DNA of 64,000 bases. It comes from Winogradskyella sp. GTDB lineage: Bacteria > Bacteroidota > Bacteroidia > Flavobacteriales > Flavobacteriaceae. Below are positions 46,963 to 61,028 of this stretch, piece after piece. The notes beneath the pieces are model-generated. The model searched no databases, was not told the DNA's origin, and was given only the letters and a program-made list of their open reading frames with translations. Location of the stretch: the NCBI RefSeq assembly GCF_003712105.1, contig NZ_RHLG01000001.1:1-64000 (forward strand), in the 5' to 3' direction. Made by a program: the position numbers and the translations under genes. Each line of letters opens with the position of its first letter. Within the stretch, counting starts at the first letter, position 1.

Positions 46963-47715
46963 TTACTTAAACCTCTTCAGAGTCTCTTTTGTGAAATCAC
47001 TTAATACTAAACGCCCACTTATTTGAGCGCGTTCGGCTAACAAATTATCCCAGTCTTCTGTTCCTTTCCAAAACATTTGCTTCATTTCTTTCATGGCCTC
47101 TGTATTGTAATTACAGAGGTTTTCTGCAAACGCTTTAACAGCATCATCAAGGTCTTCTGTCGATTCAAAAACTTGTGTGAATAAGCCTTTTTGTTTTGCC
47201 CATTCGGCAGGATAAAAACTATTAGCATCAATAGCAATTTGAGACATTCCGCTTAATCCAAGTTTACGCTCAACTGCTGGACCAACTACAAATGGCCCAA
47301 TACCAACATTAAGCTCACTTAACTTTATTGCGGCAAATTTTGTAGCCATACAATAATCAGTTGCCGAAGCTAAGCCAACTCCACCACCAACAGTTTTACC
47401 TTGAACGCGTCCAATAATAAACTTTGGACACTTGCGCATCGCATTAATCACATTAGCAAACCCTGAAAAGAACACACGACCAGTTTCAGCGTCATTAATA
47501 TTAATCAATTCTTTAAAACTAGCCCCAGCACAAAAGGTTCTATCGCCTCCACTTTTTAAAACAATAACTTTTATATCATCGTTGTTCCCAGCATCAGTTA
47601 TAGTTTGTGCCAATTCTGCTAAAATATGTCCTGGTAGTGAATTATGTGCAGGGTGAAAAAATTCTATATATCCTACACCATTTTCAATGGTTTGCTTTAC
47701 GTAAGGTTGTGTCAT
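46963..47715 (-). CDS. paaF: Enoyl-CoA hydratase/isomerase-family protein (PaaF-like)
   Basis: 250 residues of the crotonase fold. Oxyanion-hole segments are CAGASFKELIN (about 62-72) and VGGGVGLASATDYCMAT (about 108-124). In the phenylacetate pathway PaaF hydrates 2,3-dehydroadipyl-CoA. It is the last gene of the leftward paa block, separated from paaZ by a broken GIY-YIG gene. The choice between PaaF and PaaG for the two crotonase genes (the other at 56.1 kb) is provisional. A hairpin repeat abuts its start codon. Confidence 0.78.
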   Translation of the reverse strand: MTQPYVKQTIENGVGYIEFFHPAHNSLPGHILAELAQTITDAGNNDDIKVIVLKSGGDRTFCAGASFKELININDAETGRVFFSGFANVINAMRKCPKFIIGRVQGKTVGGGVGLASATDYCMATKFAAIKLSELNVGIGPFVVGPAVERKLGLSGMSQIAIDANSFYPAEWAKQKGLFTQVFESTEDLDDAVKAFAENLCNYNTEAMKEMKQMFWKGTEDWDNLLAERAQISGRLVLSDFTKETLKRFK

Positions 47716-47747
47716 GTTTACTTTCCGCGAAAGCGGTAATCTTATTA
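47716..47747. repeat. CGAAAG-type hairpin repeat next to the paaF start (3' end of GIY-YIG cassette 1)
   Basis: The stem-loop on the minus strand is TTACCGC-TTTC-GCGGAAA. Sequence from the start codon outward (GTTTACTTTCC then CGAAAG then GGNAAT) closely matches the copies upstream of paaC (58483) and paaI (53889). Confidence 0.75.
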
Positions 47748-47760
47748 AATAATATTCAAT

Positions 47761-48045
47761 TTATAATTCTTCATACAAATCCTTCCAATAAGGATTTGAT
47801 TTTTCTATTAGTTCTATCTTCCAAGCTCTATTCCATTTTTTCATTCTCTTTTCTCTTAATTTGGTTTCATCTTCAGTGTCAGACTCTTCAAAATAAACTA
47901 ATTTGTCCAAATTATATCTTGCTGAAAATGTCTTTAGATGAGCTTTATTTTTATGTTGATATATTCTTGCTTTTAATCGTTTAGTTTTTCCTATGTATAA
48001 AACACCATCCCTTTTGTTTGTGATGATATATATGCAGTGTCACAT
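47761..48045 (-). pseudogene. GIY-YIG nuclease gene, TGA at codon 2 (cassette 1)
   Basis: 95 codons from ATG at 48045 to TAA at 47761. Codon 2 is TGA (48040-48042); after it the frame is open and reads HCIYIITNKRDGVLYIGKTK then ARYNLDKLVYFEES and KRMKKWNRAWKIELIEKSNP, a complete stand-alone GIY-YIG domain of the UvrC-N/YhbQ type. No other start codon lies upstream of the GIY-YIG motif in this frame, so the gene is probably dead or rests on a sequencing error. It is bracketed by hairpin repeats at 48066 and 47716. The spacer 47716-48103 has no other gene. Confidence 0.8.
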
Positions 48046-48065
48046 ATTCTAGAACTTAATCTTAG

Positions 48066-48084
48066 ATTCCCACTTTCGTGGGAA
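48066..48084. repeat. GAAA-loop hairpin repeat at the 5' side of GIY-YIG cassette 1
   Basis: On the minus strand TTCCCAC-GAAA-GTGGGAA: seven-base stem and a GNRA tetraloop. It directly adjoins the palindrome that spans the paaZ stop codon. Confidence 0.8.
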
Positions 48085-48129
48085 CTTTGAACAATTCGAT
48101 CTGTTATAACAGATCGAATTGTTCAAAGT
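48084..48129. repeat. 46-base perfect palindrome across the paaZ stop codon
   Basis: Bases 48084-48105 are the exact reverse complement of 48108-48129, with the centre at TTATAA. The right half is the last seven codons and stop of paaZ (HFEQFDLL region), so the left half is an inverted copy of the gene's 3' end. It can serve as a transcription terminator hairpin, though no T-run follows. Confidence 0.92.
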
Positions 48130-50608
48130 GATGATTCAGATGTTTTCTTTCCATCAAATACCACTCGTATCTATTCAATTCACCAAATACCATATTAGAT
48201 AATGTCGCATCTGGGTTGTCTTTAAAAAAATCTAAATATTTTTGACGTTGAGATTTAAAACTTTCAACAGCTGTGACAAAATCGGGATGCTTAAGTTCAT
48301 CTAAAGTATCTTTTTCCAGTAAAGGAAATTGACTGTTTTTTGGAAACTTTCTGTAATTATATAGACTGTTCTTAACTTTTTCTAAAATCTTTTCTGGTGT
48401 AGAGATTTCAAAATCCTGAATTTCTCCTGCAGCAATTTTATACGTATACTCTAAATGCTCTAGCATATGTTGTGGCGTCATAATTCCCCATAAAGGTTTT
48501 GCATCTTCAGAAAGTTTAGCTAAACATTCATCAATCTTATCATCATTTATTTCAACAAAAGTTTCTTGCTTTTTCTGCACCATTGTTAACACCGTTGCCA
48601 ATGCCACTAATTCATCGTCGGCATCAAAAATTTCGGCAAACCATTTTACAATACCGCTAGGATGTTCAGCAGAGGCCACATCTCTATCTACTTTTTGCTT
48701 ACATGTTAATCGCACATAAATGGTATCGTTGTGATAAAGAGGCCGTAAAAATCGGCATTCTTCTAATCCATAATTTGCAGACACAGGGCCTTTATTTGGA
48801 TACACGAATAATCCCGCAGCAGCAGATATTATGAAATAGCCATGAGCAGTGCGCTTTTCGAAAATACTACCATCTAAAGACGTAATATCTGTATGTGCAT
48901 AAAAATGGTCCCATGTAAGATTCGAGAAATTAATAATATCCGAATCTGTTATAGTACGTTTGTGCGTCTTCATTGACATTCCTGGCTGAATATCTTCCCA
49001 ATGGTATTTAAATGGATGCTGCTCTGCTTCCTTATATTTTGCCTTCTGCTGATAAATGCCTGTGATTTCGGTAATAGTTGTAGGTGAACCTTGAATTGCC
49101 GTACGCTGTAAGTAATGTTTAATCCCGCGCATGCCTCCCATTTCTTCACCACCACCAGCACGTCCTGGACCACCATGAACCAAATATGGTAATGGCGAAC
49201 CATGACCTGTACTTTCTTTTGCCATTTCACGATTAATAACCAAAATACGCCCATGATGACTTGCAGCATTGACTACGTATTCTGATGCAATTTTATCATC
49301 GAACGTTGCTATTGAAGACACTAATGAGCCTTTACCCATTTGTGCCAATTGTACAGCCTCATCCAAACTCTTATAGGGCATAATTGTACTTACTGGCCCA
49401 AAAGCTTCTCGTTCGTGAATAACAGTATTTTTGAAAGGATGGTCTGCTCGTAATAAAATAGGACTTATAAATGCACCTTTTTTAGCGTCAGCTCCGATAG
49501 TTTCTATTTTATCTAAATCTCCATATACAATTTGAGCTTCTTTAGCCAAATCGTTAACCGAATCTTTAACAGCCTGTACTTGTTGACGACTCACTAATGC
49601 GCCCATTCTAACCTCTTTTAAACGAGGATCACCAATCGTAACTTTATCAAGTGCTTTCCCTAATGCAATTTGTACATCTTCAACTAAATTATCAGGGACT
49701 ATGATTCGTCTAATGGCTGTACATTTCTGACCAGCTTTGACAGTCATTTCTTTTCTGACTTCCTTGATAAACAAATCAAATTCTGGTGTACCAGGAACAG
49801 CATCTTCTCCTAAAATTGATGCGTTTAAAGAATCTGCTTCCATTGTAAATGGTACAGATTCTTGTATTAATCTTGGGTGTGCTTTTAATAATCTACCTGT
49901 TTGAGCAGAACCCGTAAATGTTACTACATCTTGAGATTCAACAGTGTCTAAAATTGATTTTACCGTTCCGTTAATAATTTGCAATGCACCTTCTGGCAGT
50001 ATACCCGAATCGATAATAGTTCTCGCAACAGCTTCTGCTAAATATGATGATGAAGGCGCAGGTAAAACCACAGCTGGCATTCCTGCCATCCAATTCACAG
50101 CGCATTTTTCTAGCATTCCCCAAACTGGAAAATTAAAGGCATTAATATGAACGGCAACGCCTTTTTTTGGCACCATAATATGATGTGCCATAAAACGTCC
50201 GCCACGAGATAAATCTACAGGGTCACCTTCTACATGAAACGGTTGATTTGGGAACAACTTTCTTAATGAGGCATTTGCAAATAAGTTACCAAAACCTCCT
50301 TCAATATCTATCCAACTATCCACTTTAGTTGCTCCTGTTCTATAACTTAAATCATAAAAAGCATCCTTACGTTTTGTAAGATATAATGCCAATTTCTTAA
50401 GCATATTACCTCGTTCTTGAAAGGTCATTTTCCGAAGTTGTTCTCCGCCTTTAGTTCGTCCGTAATGTAGTATTTCAGGAATATCTAATCCTTCTATGGC
50501 AACACTTGTGAAAGCTTCGCCAGTGATTGCATCATGAACTGGTGTTCCATCTTCTGTACCTGTTGTCCATTGTCCTTGGACGTAATGTTGTATTTTTTCC
50601 ATAACCAT
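48104..50608 (-). CDS. paaZ: PaaZ bifunctional oxepin-CoA hydrolase / semialdehyde dehydrogenase with an extra C-terminal domain
   Basis: 834 residues against about 680 in Escherichia coli. An aldehyde dehydrogenase domain (1-515; Glu257 in FTMEADSLNAS and Cys296 in AGQKCTAIRR) oxidises the semialdehyde, and a MaoC-like hydratase domain (about 530-680; Asp567 and His572 in WDHFYAHTD) opens the oxepin-CoA ring. Residues about 690-834 form an added helical domain with LWGIMTPQHMLEHLEYTYKI and ERKHLNHHFEQF, resembling DUF1569/DinB-like proteins. An alternative ATG lies two codons in (50602). Broken GIY-YIG genes lie on both sides, and a hairpin repeat abuts the start. Confidence 0.94.
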   Translation of the reverse strand: MVMEKIQHYVQGQWTTGTEDGTPVHDAITGEAFTSVAIEGLDIPEILHYGRTKGGEQLRKMTFQERGNMLKKLALYLTKRKDAFYDLSYRTGATKVDSWIDIEGGFGNLFANASLRKLFPNQPFHVEGDPVDLSRGGRFMAHHIMVPKKGVAVHINAFNFPVWGMLEKCAVNWMAGMPAVVLPAPSSSYLAEAVARTIIDSGILPEGALQIINGTVKSILDTVESQDVVTFTGSAQTGRLLKAHPRLIQESVPFTMEADSLNASILGEDAVPGTPEFDLFIKEVRKEMTVKAGQKCTAIRRIIVPDNLVEDVQIALGKALDKVTIGDPRLKEVRMGALVSRQQVQAVKDSVNDLAKEAQIVYGDLDKIETIGADAKKGAFISPILLRADHPFKNTVIHEREAFGPVSTIMPYKSLDEAVQLAQMGKGSLVSSIATFDDKIASEYVVNAASHHGRILVINREMAKESTGHGSPLPYLVHGGPGRAGGGEEMGGMRGIKHYLQRTAIQGSPTTITEITGIYQQKAKYKEAEQHPFKYHWEDIQPGMSMKTHKRTITDSDIINFSNLTWDHFYAHTDITSLDGSIFEKRTAHGYFIISAAAGLFVYPNKGPVSANYGLEECRFLRPLYHNDTIYVRLTCKQKVDRDVASAEHPSGIVKWFAEIFDADDELVALATVLTMVQKKQETFVEINDDKIDECLAKLSEDAKPLWGIMTPQHMLEHLEYTYKIAAGEIQDFEISTPEKILEKVKNSLYNYRKFPKNSQFPLLEKDTLDELKHPDFVTAVESFKSQRQKYLDFFKDNPDATLSNMVFGELNRYEWYLMERKHLNHHFEQFDLL

Positions 50609-50625
50609 GCCTGCGAAAGCAGTTA
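50606..50625. repeat. CGAAAG-type hairpin repeat at the paaZ start (3' end of GIY-YIG cassette 2)
   Basis: CTGCGAAAGCAG at 50611-50622; on the minus strand TAACTGC-TTTC-GCAGGCA, inverted relative to the GAAA-loop copy at the other end of the cassette. The following ATCTTATT is shared with the copies at 47716 and 58879. Confidence 0.7.
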
Positions 50626-50630
50626 TCTTA

Positions 50631-50954
50631 TTAATAATTTCTTCTAAATCTTCTTGTGCCTAAATTCCAATTCAAACTTAAATCCGACCAACTTGGATTC
50701 ATCTCTTCAATCAACTTAATTTTCTCATCTCTTTTCCACTTTTTAAACCGAACTTCTCAAATTAATGCTTCATCTGCATTTTCTAACTCTTCAAAATAAA
50801 CTAATTTATCACAATTATATCTTGCAGTAAAAGCTTTAGGATATACTTTTAGTTTATGCTCTTTAACTCTTTCATCAATATTATCGGTTAAACCAATATA
50901 AATTACGCCGTTAGCCTTATTTGTCATTATATAGACATACCAAGTTTCATTCAC
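50631..50954 (-). pseudogene. GIY-YIG nuclease gene, internal TGA (cassette 2)
   Basis: From ATG at 50954 the frame reads WYVYIMTNKANGVIYIGLTD then ARYNCDKLVYFEELENADEA, stops at TGA (50757-50759) after 65 codons, and is then open again for EVRFKKWKRDEKIKLIEEMN and on to TAA at 50631. The segment after the stop is the normal C-terminal part of the GIY-YIG family (compare KRMKKWNRAWKIELIEKSNP in cassette 1), so a single nonsense change, probably from CGA or AGA, broke the gene. The cassette has hairpins on both sides, and the spacer 50609-50986 has no other gene. Confidence 0.82.
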
Positions 50955-50966
50955 TTTTATAAAGAG

Positions 50967-50986
50967 ATTCCTGCCTTCGCAGGAAT
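50967..50986. repeat. GAAG-loop hairpin repeat at the 5' side of GIY-YIG cassette 2
   Basis: On the minus strand ATTCCTGC-GAAG-GCAGGAAT, an eight-base stem. It abuts the stop codon of the short-chain dehydrogenase gene. Confidence 0.8.
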
Positions 50987-51589
50987 TTATGCCATTATTC
51001 TTAAAATTCTTCCTGTAATTTTCCCTTCAATAGATTTGACATAACCATCTACAATTTTATGCATTGGTACAGGTGTATTTCCCGGGAAATAATCTTTATA
51101 TTTTTCAAATGAGTCTTCTACCAAATCTGAGCATACTACATTAATACGCTTTCCATCTTCTAATTCTAGAGCAACTGCTTTTGCAAAACTATTAATTGCA
51201 CCATTCACTAATGCAGCACTTGTTGTCATATTAACAGGATCATCTGCTAATATCCCAGTGGATAGAGTGATTGAGCCACCTGAATTTAAATAATCCTTAC
51301 CTATTCTTACGACATTTACCTGACCCATCATTTTACTCTTAATACCAATGGAAAAATCCTCCTCAGAGAGATTGTCTAATTTATCCCATTTAGCATCACC
51401 AGCAATTGCTACTATAGCATCAATACTGCCAACATTTTCAAACATTGACTTAATAGATTGAGCATCTGTAAAATCGACAGTAACATTTCCGGAATTTCGA
51501 CCTGCTACGAGTACTTCATGTTTTTGGGCTAAGCGCTCGCTTACTTTTTTGCCGATGGTACCGTTTCCGCCTATGACTAATATTTTCAT
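50987..51589 (-). CDS. Short-chain dehydrogenase-like protein without the usual catalytic Tyr/Lys
   Basis: 200 residues, shorter than classical SDRs (about 250). The Rossmann glycine motif is GGNGTIGKK (7-15), with a VAGRNSG loop for NADP. The segment where YxxxK normally lies reads DPVNMTTSAALVNGAINSFA, so the tyrosine and lysine are absent. It matches my memory of a short SDR subgroup (PRK07578-like) that also lacks them. Its role in the paa block is unclear; it lies 89 bases downstream of the thiolase gene. Confidence 0.8.
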   Translation of the reverse strand: MKILVIGGNGTIGKKVSERLAQKHEVLVAGRNSGNVTVDFTDAQSIKSMFENVGSIDAIVAIAGDAKWDKLDNLSEEDFSIGIKSKMMGQVNVVRIGKDYLNSGGSITLSTGILADDPVNMTTSAALVNGAINSFAKAVALELEDGKRINVVCSDLVEDSFEKYKDYFPGNTPVPMHKIVDGYVKSIEGKITGRILRIMA

Positions 51590-57726: not shown

Positions 57727-58482
57727 CTACCATTCCATATTTGGATAGGTTCTTTGCATGTATTGTAAATCGGCTAGCAAATAACCTAAATGCTCAGTAT
57801 GGATGCCTATTTTACCACCTTTTTGAAACCATTTCGATTCTGGAGTGTTTAATCTTGCTTTATTTAACAGCTCGCCAACTGATTTATAATAGTTGTCTTT
57901 TAGTTTAGTAACATCAACTCCGACACCATCTTCAACCATAACCTTATCAGCTTCAGTTTGATGAAATAATTCATCTGTGTACGTCCATAAGTCATTTATT
58001 GCTTCTTGCATCTTCTGATTGCTTTCTTCGGTTCCGTCACCTAATCGCTTTACCCAATCTGAAGAAAAGCGTTCATGATAACTCACTTCTTTAATACATT
58101 TATTAGCTATTGCAGAAAGTGTCAAATCTGAACTTTTTTGCAGCTCGTTAAGAAAAGAGAAATGGTATACATCAAATAAAAAATGTCGCGCAATTGTATA
58201 TGCAAAATTTGTATTTGGCTGCTCTGCTAATAAAACATTTTTATACTCGCGCTCTTTGCGAAGCATTGCAATATCATCTTCTGTTCTGCCATCACCAGCA
58301 ATTTTTGCCGCATATTGAAAATAGCTGCGTACTTGCCCGAATAAATCTAGTGAGATGTTTGTACAGGCAATATCAGTTTCTAAAGTTGGTCCATGGCCGC
58401 AAAGCTCACCCATTCGCTGTCCTAGAATAAGACTATTGTCGGCAATGCCAAGTATATAATTATATAAATTTTCGTTTTTCAT
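57727..58482 (-). CDS. paaC: Phenylacetyl-CoA epoxidase structural subunit PaaC
   Basis: 251 residues, helical ferritin-like fold. Typical segments are LYNYILGIADNSLILGQRMG, GPTLETDIACTNISLDLFGQ and KEVSYHERFSSDWVKRLGDG. PaaC pairs with PaaA in the (PaaA)2(PaaC)2 core and lacks a full diiron site. It lies between paaB and paaD. Confidence 0.95.
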   Translation of the reverse strand: MKNENLYNYILGIADNSLILGQRMGELCGHGPTLETDIACTNISLDLFGQVRSYFQYAAKIAGDGRTEDDIAMLRKEREYKNVLLAEQPNTNFAYTIARHFLFDVYHFSFLNELQKSSDLTLSAIANKCIKEVSYHERFSSDWVKRLGDGTEESNQKMQEAINDLWTYTDELFHQTEADKVMVEDGVGVDVTKLKDNYYKSVGELLNKARLNTPESKWFQKGGKIGIHTEHLGYLLADLQYMQRTYPNMEW

Positions 58483-58512
58483 GTTTACTTTCCACGAAAG
58501 TGGAAATCCTTT
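58483..58512. repeat. CGAAAG-type hairpin repeat next to the paaC start
   Basis: TTTCCAC-GAAA-GTGGAAA on the plus strand, directly after the start codon region, nearly the same as the copy next to paaF. Confidence 0.78.
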
Positions 58513-58540
58513 TAATTAAACATTCACTTAATTTTTTGAG

Positions 58541-58585
58541 TTTCCCATTTTCATGGGAAACGTAAATTGAAAAAATTCAATTTAC
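58541..58585. repeat. Paired inverted repeats at the paaB 3' end
   Basis: A ten-base inverted repeat (58562-58571 with 58576-58585) includes the paaB stop codon and its inverted copy; it is followed by a GAAA-type hairpin (58541-58560, TTTCCCAT and its complement). The layout repeats that at the paaZ 3' end (48066-48129). Confidence 0.75.
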
Positions 58586-58924: not shown

Positions 58925-59881
58925 TTAAACTGCTTGTTTTTGCTTTCTTTCTTCTTTCTTTTCTGCATGAGCCATTGCTGCATCTCTAACCCATTGACCA
59001 CGTTCCCATGCGCCAACTCTTGCTTTCATTCTAGCTTTGTTCATAGGTCCATGACCCTTAACCACTTGCCAAAATTCATCCCAATCAATTTCTCCAAAAT
59101 CATAGCTTCCTCGCTCTTCATTCCATTTTAAATCTGGGTCGGGTACTGTTAATCCTATTAAGTCTGCTTGAGGCACTGTTTGGTCTATGAACTGTTGACG
59201 TAACTCGTCATTAGTTTTACGTTTAAGTTTCCATTTCATAGATTGTGCAGTATGCACTGACTTATCATCTGTCGGCCCAAGCATCATTAGACTTGGCCAC
59301 CACCAACGATTTAATGCATCTTGAGCCATTTCTTTTTGCTCAGGTGTACCATTTGCCAACTTAATCATGATCTCATAGCCTTGACGTTGGTGGAAACTTT
59401 CCTCCTTACATACACGAATCATAGCTCTTGCATAAGGTCCATATGAGGTATTACATAAAGGTACTTGATTGATAATGGCTGCACCATCTACTAACCAACC
59501 AATAGCTCCCATATCTGCCCAAGTTAAGGTAGGATAATTGAAGATACTCGAGTATTTAGCCTTACCGGTATGTAATTGCTCATACATTTGGTCCCGTGAA
59601 ATACCAAGAGTTTCCGTCGCAGAATACAAGTATAAACCATGACCTGCTTCATCTTGAACCTTAGCCAGTAGTGCTACCTTACGCCTAAGTGAAGGTGCTC
59701 TTGTAATCCAGTTTCCTTCGGGAAGCATTCCTATTATTTCAGAATGCGCATGCTGAGACATTTGTCTTATATGCGTCTGACGATACTTTTCGGGCATCCA
59801 ATCTTTAGGTTCAATTTTTTCGTCGCGGGCTATACGGGCTTCGAATTCTTTTTCTAGGTTTTTAATTTGATCTTCACTCAT
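58925..59881 (-). CDS. paaA: Phenylacetyl-CoA epoxidase catalytic subunit PaaA
   Basis: 318 residues. The diiron motifs of the ferritin-like fold are visible: [20 protein letters not shown] and [20 protein letters not shown]. PaaA inserts one oxygen atom into the phenyl ring of phenylacetyl-CoA to give the 1,2-epoxide. The start of the protein ([20 protein letters not shown]) and the end ([20 protein letters not shown]) are typical. It is the second gene of the leftward block, after paaE. Confidence 0.97.
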
Positions 59882-59918: not shown

Positions 59919-59939
59919 ATTCCTGCATGCCGCAGGAAT
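59919..59939. repeat. ATTCCTGC/GCAGGAAT hairpin between paaE and paaA
   Basis: Eight-base arms around ATGCC-type loop, the same stem sequence as the repeat at 50967. Confidence 0.78.
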
Positions 59940-59954
59940 GACAAATCATTTGAT

Positions 59955-61028
59955 TTACACATCAAAATCAACCACTACCTTATCCGTTGTAGGTACGGCT
60001 TGACAACTTAGTACCAAATTTTGCGACACTTCTTTGTCATCAAGTGCATAATTAATCATCATTTCAACTTGGCCTTCTTTGACTTCGCACTTACACGTAC
60101 TGCACACTCCACCTTTACATGCAAATGGTAAATCGGCTCCTGCACCTAAAGCGGCATCTAATATGTTATTATACTCTTTGGTCATGGTAAATAAGAATTC
60201 TTTTCCTCCATCTACTATAACCACTTCAGTACCTTCTAAATTTTGCTTTGATAAGCGTTCCGCACGTTTAATGTCTTCTTCTGACAAACCCGTTACAAAC
60301 AACTCGTAATGAATCAACTCCTTGGGCAAACCCGCATTCACCAAATAATCGCTAACGAAATTTATCATTTGCTCCGGCCCACATAAAAAGACGTCGTTAG
60401 TATCTGGGATATCGATAAACGTCTTGGTTAGTATTTCCATTTTCTCATCGTCAAAACGACCATTAAATAACTCAATATCTCGTCGTTCTTTAGTTAAGAA
60501 ATAATAAATCTCGAGCCTCCCAAAATATGTATTGCGTAACTGCTCTAGCACTTCTTTAAAGATAATGGATTTAGCAGTTTTATTTACATAAAATAATTTA
60601 CAGGTTGAGTTTGGCTCAACTGATAAATGTGCTTTTATCATCGATAATATTGGCGTAATTCCGCTGCCTGCAGCAAAAAATAGATAGTTCTTAGAGGCTT
60701 CTGGGTTTACTTCAATACCAAAATGACCACTTGGTGCCATCACTTCCATTATATCTCCAACAGTTACAGACTGATTAATAAAGGTTGAAAATTTTCCGCC
60801 AGGAATCTCTTTTACAGCTACTTGCCACTTTCCGTCATTTGGGCCCGAGCACAATGAATATGAACGACGCACATCTTCCCCATCAATATCAGCTTTAAGG
60901 GTTAAATGTTGTCCTTGCCTAAAACTAAACTCTTGTTTTAATTCTTCAGGAATATTAAAAGTCACTACAGATGTATCCGAAGTTTCTTTATAAATATCTT
61001 CAACTTTTAAATCGTGAAATTCTGCCAT
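59955..61028 (-). CDS. paaE: Phenylacetyl-CoA epoxidase reductase PaaE
   Basis: 357 residues: a FAD-binding barrel (about 1-105, FRQGQHLTLKADIDGEDVRR and SYSLCSGPNDGKWQVAVKE), an NAD-binding domain (about 110-235, FFAAGSGITPILSMIKAHLS), and a plant-type 2Fe-2S domain (about 265-357) with Cys304, 309, 312 and 342. It moves electrons from NADPH to PaaA. It is the first gene of the paa block and has a clear promoter with a palindromic operator just upstream. Confidence 0.96.
   Translation of the reverse strand: MAEFHDLKVEDIYKETSDTSVVTFNIPEELKQEFSFRQGQHLTLKADIDGEDVRRSYSLCSGPNDGKWQVAVKEIPGGKFSTFINQSVTVGDIMEVMAPSGHFGIEVNPEASKNYLFFAAGSGITPILSMIKAHLSVEPNSTCKLFYVNKTAKSIIFKEVLEQLRNTYFGRLEIYYFLTKERRDIELFNGRFDDEKMEILTKTFIDIPDTNDVFLCGPEQMINFVSDYLVNAGLPKELIHYELFVTGLSEEDIKRAERLSKQNLEGTEVVIVDGGKEFLFTMTKEYNNILDAALGAGADLPFACKGGVCSTCKCEVKEGQVEMMINYALDDKEVSQNLVLSCQAVPTTDKVVVDFDV

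Follow-up and report, generated by a model that had tools for sequence, protein, structure and literature searches.

In this study, a window of 64,000 nucleotides from Winogradskyella sp. (C6:1-64000 of the genome G000, which comprises 3.15 Mb in 10 contigs) was found to contain two minus-strand cassettes in junctions of a phenylacetate-type operon, flanking paaZ, and each cassette consists of a hairpin, a GIY-YIG nuclease reading frame and an inverted hairpin. These cassettes are probably copies of a widespread mobile unit in which one YhbQ/UPF0213-like GIY-YIG gene lies between inverted repetitive extragenic palindromic (REP) hairpins tagged with CGTC or TGTC, and which would be copied by cutting and repair; from the sequence comparisons we give this reading a probability of about 0.7. 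We infer that the nuclease binds and cuts the REP and that this cutting drives the spread. The enzyme would cut the DNA upon recognising either the REP ends, tagged and folded, or the junction in which they lie; host break repair would then copy the unit. The usual target would be the corresponding junction on another chromosome, entered in a homing-like manner and mostly with co-conversion of 100-300 nt of flank; insertion at new junctions within one genome would be rarer. Units that lose the gene would persist as non-autonomous derivatives, either REP doublets forming hairpins (REPINs, with two REPs in inverted order) or solo REPs.

Cassette 1 (47716-48084, minus strand) lies in the junction between paaZ and an enoyl-CoA hydratase-like gene, and cassette 2 (50606-50986, minus strand) in that between a short-chain dehydrogenase-like (SDR) gene and paaZ. 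A preliminary description of this DNA had noted that the two are alike in orientation, length and layout, each starting with a hairpin having a GAAA or GAAG loop and ending with one in the opposite sense, and all of this was confirmed for both cassettes. The 5' hairpin of cassette 1 (48067-48084, minus) reads TTCCCAC-GAAA-GTGGGAA in gene sense, with the loop TTTC on the plus strand, and that of cassette 2 (50967-50986, minus) reads ATTCCTGC-GAAG-GCAGGAAT, with the plus strand loop CTTC, and adjoins the stop codon of the SDR gene (50987-51589). At the other side, the REP-like 3' hairpin of cassette 1 (47722-47741, minus; core CCGC-GAAA-GCGG) is followed by GTAAAC and then by the start codon of the enoyl-CoA hydratase-like gene (46963-47715), a context repeated in the relatives L031-L033, and the 3' hairpin of cassette 2 (50608-50628, minus; core CTGC-GAAA-GCAG) adjoins the start of paaZ. 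The GIY-YIG frames of cassette 1 (47761-48042, minus) and cassette 2 (50679-50954, minus) both matched PF01541, with E-values of 1.2e-16 and 9.1e-17 respectively, but neither gene is intact. In cassette 1, 92 amino acids are open from 48039 to the TAA at 47761-47763, and a TGA at 48040-48042 stands immediately ahead of this conserved frame; the orthologues in eight relatives have open frames with a protein identity of 71-81%. The cassette 2 gene is broken by an in-frame TGA at 50757-50759; moreover, the ATG equivalent to the start codon of the relatives is apparently out of frame and the sole in-frame start is GTG. As both nuclease genes are broken, the two window copies are dead relics, and intact relatives are common. 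Their ends carry no clear [CT]GTC tag, and the score used below for inverted flanks is only 9 and 10 in the window cassettes because the two ends have diverged from one another.

The layout is found far beyond the window. Of 79 genomes searched with the cassette-1 protein, 43 (the window genome among them) gave a match, and a set of 91 loci from the window genome and its relatives was formed from 30 loci of this search (one being cassette 1), 60 loci fetched separately and cassette 2; places at contig ends and some weaker matches were left out. The inverted-flank score compares 200 nt upstream of the gene with the reverse complement of 260 nt downstream, and a threshold of 12 was used. This threshold was reached at 54 of the 91 loci, as against 4 of 182 displaced windows, 0 of 91 shuffles and 118 of 910 mismatched pairs. 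In a cross-phylum set of 80 loci, taken among 551 confirmed candidates in a scan of named genomes, 68 loci reached it compared with 9 of 432 displaced windows, and in a search of the phylum Bacteroidota 20 of 30 loci did so compared with 2 of 116; L318 of the latter search duplicates L068, and the tally is 19 of 29 when it is removed. The preliminary description had proposed a comparison with random genes. Control genes from the same loci reached 12 in 6 of 126 and 6 of 209 cases, so that inverted hairpins flank the nuclease more often (54/91 vs 6/126). Chance pairing of hairpins was rejected on these counts, which are far above those of displaced windows and control genes. The cross-phylum records belong to Bacteroidota, several proteobacterial classes, Ignavibacteria, Spirochaetes, Nitrospirae, Planctomycetota, Cloacimonadota, Dehalococcoidia and candidate phyla, many of them being metagenome bins in which single taxon assignments may be wrong. 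The architecture and its generality appear well established by these comparisons.

The ends across the phyla mostly take the form [CT]GTCAT-stem-loop-stem-ATCCA or ATCT, with the tag pointing outward. Under a strict rule, in which TGTC or CGTC has to adjoin a stem of at least 7 pairs, both tags were outward at 48 of the 80 cross-phylum loci and at 0 of 293 displaced ones. A tag-outward REP was present upstream at 52/80 and downstream at 63/80 of these loci, and at 15/91 and 26/91, respectively, in the set from the window genome and relatives. The commonest unpaired 3-nt tail was CCA (94), followed by CTA (31). These are features of the CGTC REP super-family, defined by Di Nocera, De Gregorio and Rocco in 2013 and including the Neisseria dRS3 and Rickettsia RPE-4/6 repeats (PMC3733652); the tag beside the stem was found at many, not all, of our loci, and the CCA-like tail and the dispersed copies were found as well. 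CGTC REPs occur in several phyla, and the available part of that survey states that they 'apparently lack a dedicated transposase' and leaves their multiplier open (PMC3733652). Between 0 and 51 REP copies were counted per genome in 48 genomes of the window's genus, and up to 284 in one Bacteroidota genome; among the matches listed for the genus there are many inverted pairs, about 37-55 nt apart from start to start. An array of many REPs within about 6 kb, mostly in one direction, was observed at G019:C25:286342-292561. In L042 and L040, the downstream gene apparently takes, as judged by eye, its first codons from the 3' hairpin of the cassette (MKNNEIPAYAGI ahead of an aldehyde dehydrogenase-like start and MSNNKVPASAGNRF ahead of an acyltransferase-like start).

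Gain and loss were examined at the two junctions of the window. At the paaZ/paaG junction, 43 loci including that of the window were assigned by eye. The cassette-1 type was present in nine of them (window included) and a different nuclease type in six, the nuclease-free states being a REPIN (6/43), a solo REP (3/43) and another hairpin pair (1/43); no insert was found in 14, with 1-2 nt from stop to start, and in four the next gene was not adjacent. The SDR/paaZ junction, which holds cassette 2 in the window, is empty in the near relatives G010, G024, G004 and G007, and in G030 it retains an apparent outer edge of a lost right end. These differing states indicate that insertion and loss have both occurred, and the sequences show presence in some species and absence in others at orthologous junctions. 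Of the checks proposed earlier for the orthologous paa loci, the search for empty sites thus succeeded, but no target duplication was visible by eye between empty and filled paaZ/paaG and SDR/paaZ junctions, where divergence leaves one of 2-3 nt possible. The preliminary description had also held that hairpins lying at the same site in strains without the nuclease gene would count against a mobile cassette, and such hairpins are partly found, in the six REPIN and three solo-REP genomes at paaZ/paaG; we would regard these as derivatives. REPINs and cassettes share junctions, mostly with different stems, and the idea that the REPIN is the homing target and the cassette an interrupted REPIN was also considered. 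At the pheS junction of the window genome (L290, G000:C6) a REPIN was observed, where five relatives have a nuclease cassette.

Some cassettes at one and the same site are more alike (96-100% identical) than the flanks around them, which have diverged further. Same-site pairs numbered 195 and came from 21 sites; at 14 of these the nuclease had, by the median, a higher identity than the flanks, and at three the nuclease types clearly differ. Five species pairs from three sites had cassette cores that were 96.3-99.4% identical (350-nt windows), whereas any other compared 400-nt window of the same pairs was at most 88.5-96.2% identical; two pairs with G043 were left out of these five, as their 'other loci' include the same paa site. 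A clear excess of identity was seen in about 7 of 24 profiles (L043/L058/L059, L097/L098, L085/L090, L046/L061 and L048/L123), spanning the cassette and about 100-300 nt of flank, and reaching about 900 nt to one side for L048/L123. The pheS elements are not closer to each other than their flanks are, which gives no sign of recent transfer there. The pattern looks like same-site transfer with co-converted flanks as in homing, though ordinary transfer and recombination could give the like, and the spread over orthologous sites looks more homing-like than free transposition. This modifies the earlier proposal of a REP/REPIN-like system with a GIY-YIG enzyme in place of the REP-associated tyrosine transposase (RAYT), the central idea of which most of our tests favour.

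The two ends of a cassette match each other and also the enzyme between them. Hairpins of 164 loci were sorted by pattern into eight classes, the left one being classed at 106 loci, the right one at 119 and both at 89. The class was the same on both sides at 84 of these 89, where 32.6 were expected and 0 of 5000 shuffles came as high. On the nuclease tree the REP class changed 17 times among 136 rows, compared with at least 52 changes in 200 shuffles, and 16 times among 88 rows when one row per site was kept, compared with at least 28 in the shuffled data. (L080 and L117 were dropped from the same-site pairs, the loop and stem tests, the class agreement and the tree, and L105 from the last two; the exact duplicates L118, L119, L133 and L142 were dropped from the same tests and kept in the 80-locus set and in the 149 pairs considered below.) Among 47 loci, 12 had equal loop letters at both ends where 6.1 were expected, a count reached in 61 of 5000 shuffles; this signal is weak but positive. 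The REP type TCATTTCGAGCTTGNCGAGAAATC has 13 copies in the 48 genus genomes, ten of which form both ends of five elements, all at the pheS junction and with nucleases of one clade; the nuclease gene of this clade is degenerate in G018, and the G028 element has one identical single change at both ends. Among four of these five pheS elements (six pairs compared), identity is 98.1% in the ends and 81.7% in the inner part. At the level of these classes, the sequences show the match of end to end and of end to nuclease.

The same evidence bears on the possibility of a free-standing homing endonuclease which cuts the empty junction, the REPs being bystanders that gather in intergenic gaps. Same-site transfer with short flanks would follow from it, as would the different nuclease types met at one junction in 3 of 21 sites, and the Seg enzymes of T4 offer a precedent as intergenic GIY-YIG proteins in the part of PMC2988022 available. 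But bystander REPs would not be expected to agree in class at 84 of 89 loci, to follow the nuclease tree, to outconserve the gene and change together at pheS, or to mark where similarity within a genome stops. Moreover, the enzyme has just about 100 amino acids, whereas the GIY-YIG homing enzymes of T4 possess additional DNA-binding modules. We consider homing without a role for the hairpins unlikely, without being far-fetched.

Copies at unrelated sites within one genome exist, although few were seen, and their similarity appears to end at or near the tags. In G151 two cassettes 6.4 kb apart have identical open reading frames (ORFs); on the 3' side the similarity stops at ATGACAGA, and on the 5' side it extends about 15-20 nt beyond the tag into a REP array. 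G164 has three copies on three contigs, 82-92% identical and sharing the stretch from TGTCAT to ATGAC, with an upstream flank common to two of them, and G143 (C86, L345) has three tandem cassettes about 420 nt apart and one inverted copy. Such boundaries at or near the GTC tag and such multiple copies would suit a nuclease working as a genuine transposase, which would take out the unit and insert it by way of single-stranded hairpin ends in the manner ascribed to REP transposases, and the REPIN derivatives and the match of ends to enzyme mirror the REP/RAYT systems in this respect. However, GIY-YIG enzymes hydrolyse DNA and, to our knowledge, no strand joining is known for them. Further, of 149 pairs with a nuclease identity of at least 80%, 97 showed flank similarity (a few of these crossed or short only, and four being duplicate records) and 52 showed none. 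A transposase of this kind is therefore rather improbable.

The nuclease itself is under strong purifying selection, to judge from median ratios of nonsynonymous to synonymous substitution rates of 0.07-0.14 in five groups. It has little beyond the catalytic domain, and the residues Y, R, H, E and N, which we take to be those of the GIY-YIG active site, were invariant in 24 diverse intact copies. By profile, the nearest solved sequences are the UPF0213 proteins 1zg2 (E 2.7e-10) and 1ywl (E 4.2e-7), which are named hypothetical. The available part of a review assigns YhbQ to the Slx1 family (PMC7017083), which makes recognition of a folded hairpin by the nuclease plausible by analogy. The same selection and the same family assignment, together with the covarying palindrome at the end of paaZ described below, would fit a nuclease useful to the host, for example as an Slx1-like repair enzyme or resolvase, with the hairpins serving to punctuate transcripts or stabilise mRNA and spreading in ways unrelated to the enzyme. 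But the presence of the gene is patchy, with empty sites, broken copies and several divergent types in one genome, and same-site cassettes are more alike than their surroundings, which makes a host function of this sort quite improbable as the explanation.

Across genomes, the repeat and the nuclease occur together. In 392 Bacteroidota genomes, the A3 nuclease profile (13 candidates scored per genome) matched at least 206 and the REP pattern GTCATTCCYGCNNNNGCRGGAATC was found in 65. The nuclease was present in 59 of the 65 genomes with the REP and in 147 of the 327 without it (odds ratio 12, p 1e-12), and 948 of 966 REP copies fall in genomes with the nuclease. Among genomes with at least five REP copies, 32 of 33 have the nuclease, the exception being G156. 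The association is partly confounded by taxonomy; stratified into four families and the rest, the odds ratio was 9.1 (p 3e-8). That RAYT or IS200-type (Y1) transposases mobilise the REPs, with the nuclease as an occasional passenger, is hardly credible: Y1 matches (PF01797, E 1e-5) do occur in 14 of the 48 genus genomes, the REP-rich G032 and G018 included, but none was found at this cut-off in the other 34, which include six of the eight genus genomes with at least 18 REPs (G019, the richest in REPs, G003, G035, G005, G017 and G043), REP number was unrelated to Y1 (rho -0.14, p 0.34), and no gene for a tyrosine transposase with CGTC REPs on its flanks was found by the 2013 survey, in the part available (PMC3733652).

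A number of observations weigh against the reading of these cassettes as a nuclease-driven mobile unit. The inverted-flank score was below 12 at 37/91, 12/80 and 10/30 loci of the three sets. The direct flank comparison, in which the hairpins also score because they are palindromic, reached 12 at 26/91 and 46/80 loci, and mismatched loci did so in 118/910 pairs of the window set and 246/800 of the cross-phylum set. Both tags were outward in just 13 of the 91 window-set loci (displaced, 1/363), as many of these loci have lost the tag; in the cross-phylum set both were inward at 12/80 and a head-to-tail combination was present at 24/80, these categories overlapping where one flank holds several REPs. 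The coupling of ends and enzyme is imperfect, since cassette-1 orthologues retain their hairpins while the stems differ, and the REPIN and solo-REP stems at paaZ/paaG mostly differ in type from those of the type-1 cassette at this junction. Cassette 1 is at a kept site in nine species with diverged hairpins, and much of its inheritance is therefore vertical. At 7 of the 21 sites the median identity of the nuclease did not exceed that of the flanks, and a clear excess was absent from most of the 24 identity profiles. As to the association, 147 genomes have the nuclease without the searched REP class, and G156 has eight REPs with no nuclease detected. Taken by family, it was significant in f38 alone (p 0.015), with p 0.16 in f32, 0.15 in f31 and 1.0 in the window's own family f1 (nuclease in 5 of 6 genomes with the REP and 29 of 40 without), and within the genus the REP number tracks the matching nuclease weakly (rho 0.34, p 0.016; with vs without, p 0.07). 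In G156 the partner gene may have been lost, or it may have been missed.

The neighbourhood of the cassettes contains further hairpins, in keeping with the solitary ones reported earlier. A REPIN-like inverted pair (58489-58506 and 58540-58561) lies upstream of the ORF 57727-58482, and a solo tagged REP (59919-59943, minus; hairpin 59919-59939), with the sequence TGTCATTCCTGC-GGCAT-GCAGGAATCC, lies between the ORFs 58925-59881 and 59955-61028. Beside cassette 1, the last 23 nt around the paaZ stop and an inverted copy of them form a perfect palindrome (48084-48129). In all nine genomes with a type-1 cassette (the window genome and L202, L207, L209, L217, L226, L236, L237 and L238), a nearly perfect inverted copy of the final 19-24 nt of paaZ follows the gene, and the two arms covary between species; by eye, no such palindrome was seen where the junction is empty or holds the other type of cassette. 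It could be an RNA stem, or the scar of fold-back synthesis upon insertion. Elsewhere in the window genome, the UvrC-like and exonuclease-like genes (L005 and L006), which also carry a GIY-YIG domain, had inverted-flank scores of 9 and 9, and the GIY-YIG loci L001 and L007 scored 11 and 7. A third orphan GIY-YIG gene, L002 (G000:C9:220709-220927), has an open frame, a score of 17 and inverted TGTCA..CTGAGCGCAGTCGAAG repeats at its ends, and repeats resembling these are also present near L001 and L007.

CGTC REPs and GIY-YIG nucleases are each known, and the link between them seems to be new, although priority is not certain. In the open-licence PMC literature, subscription journals being outside this scope, no connection of GIY-YIG with REP, REPIN, RAYT, extragenic or palindromic repeats was found. 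The main text of a 2025 REP survey (PMC12306157) has no word beginning with nuclease, GIY, transposase or RAYT, the available part of a 2006 GIY-YIG survey (PMC1564403) makes no link to REPs, and in that of PMC9465073 a RAYT and a GIY-YIG gene are merely separate rows of a gene table. A nuclease that lies between matched REPs, follows their type and co-occurs with them is a concrete candidate for the missing partner enzyme of the CGTC REPs. It also suggests a chromosomal selfish form of GIY-YIG of about 370 bases, besides those of introns, phage homing, restriction and repair enzymes. If this is true, the unit would be among the smallest autonomous mobile units and would account for many scattered hairpins, some of which land inside genes. 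In a broader proposal, which could equally well prove right or wrong, the CGTC REPs throughout bacteria, dRS3 and RPE-4/6 included, would be the ends and non-autonomous offspring of GIY-YIG elements, forming a second class of REP multiplication in which a structure-selective Slx1-like nuclease works with host repair and enzyme and hairpin co-evolve.

In comparison with the known systems, many cassette ends fit the CGTC REPs in the [CT]GTC tag, the stem of 8-9 bp starting with AT, the loop of 4-5 nt, the CCA-like tail and the inverted dimers. They differ in that a GIY-YIG nuclease gene lies between them, whereas no transposase gene with CGTC REPs on its flanks was reported in the part of PMC3733652 available, and in that the tag is lost or altered in many cassettes of the window's genus. 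The UPF0213/YhbQ/Slx1-like proteins (PDB 1zg2 and 1ywl) are the nearest solved sequences to the nuclease, and a hairpin-bracketed context was not found reported for them in the available parts of the literature examined. Like the Seg GIY-YIG homing endonucleases of T4-like phages, in the part of PMC2988022 available, the nuclease gene sits in intergenic gaps and has co-converted flanks. Unlike the Seg proteins, it occurs in bacterial chromosomes as a minimal nuclease domain, with inverted hairpin ends and REP relatives across the genome. The likeness to REP/REPIN-RAYT systems lies in an enzyme gene between inverted palindromic repeats, with REPINs and solo repeats elsewhere in the genome; the unit is no member of that class, as the HUH enzyme is absent, and it has a GIY-YIG in place of the HUH/Y1 enzyme, a GTC tag (TGTC or CGTC, the forms searched for) where those systems have GTAG, and a homing-like same-site transfer. 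The unit would seem to enter orthologous sites in the manner of a homing endonuclease, and in its anatomy and derivatives it appears to resemble the REP-RAYT systems.

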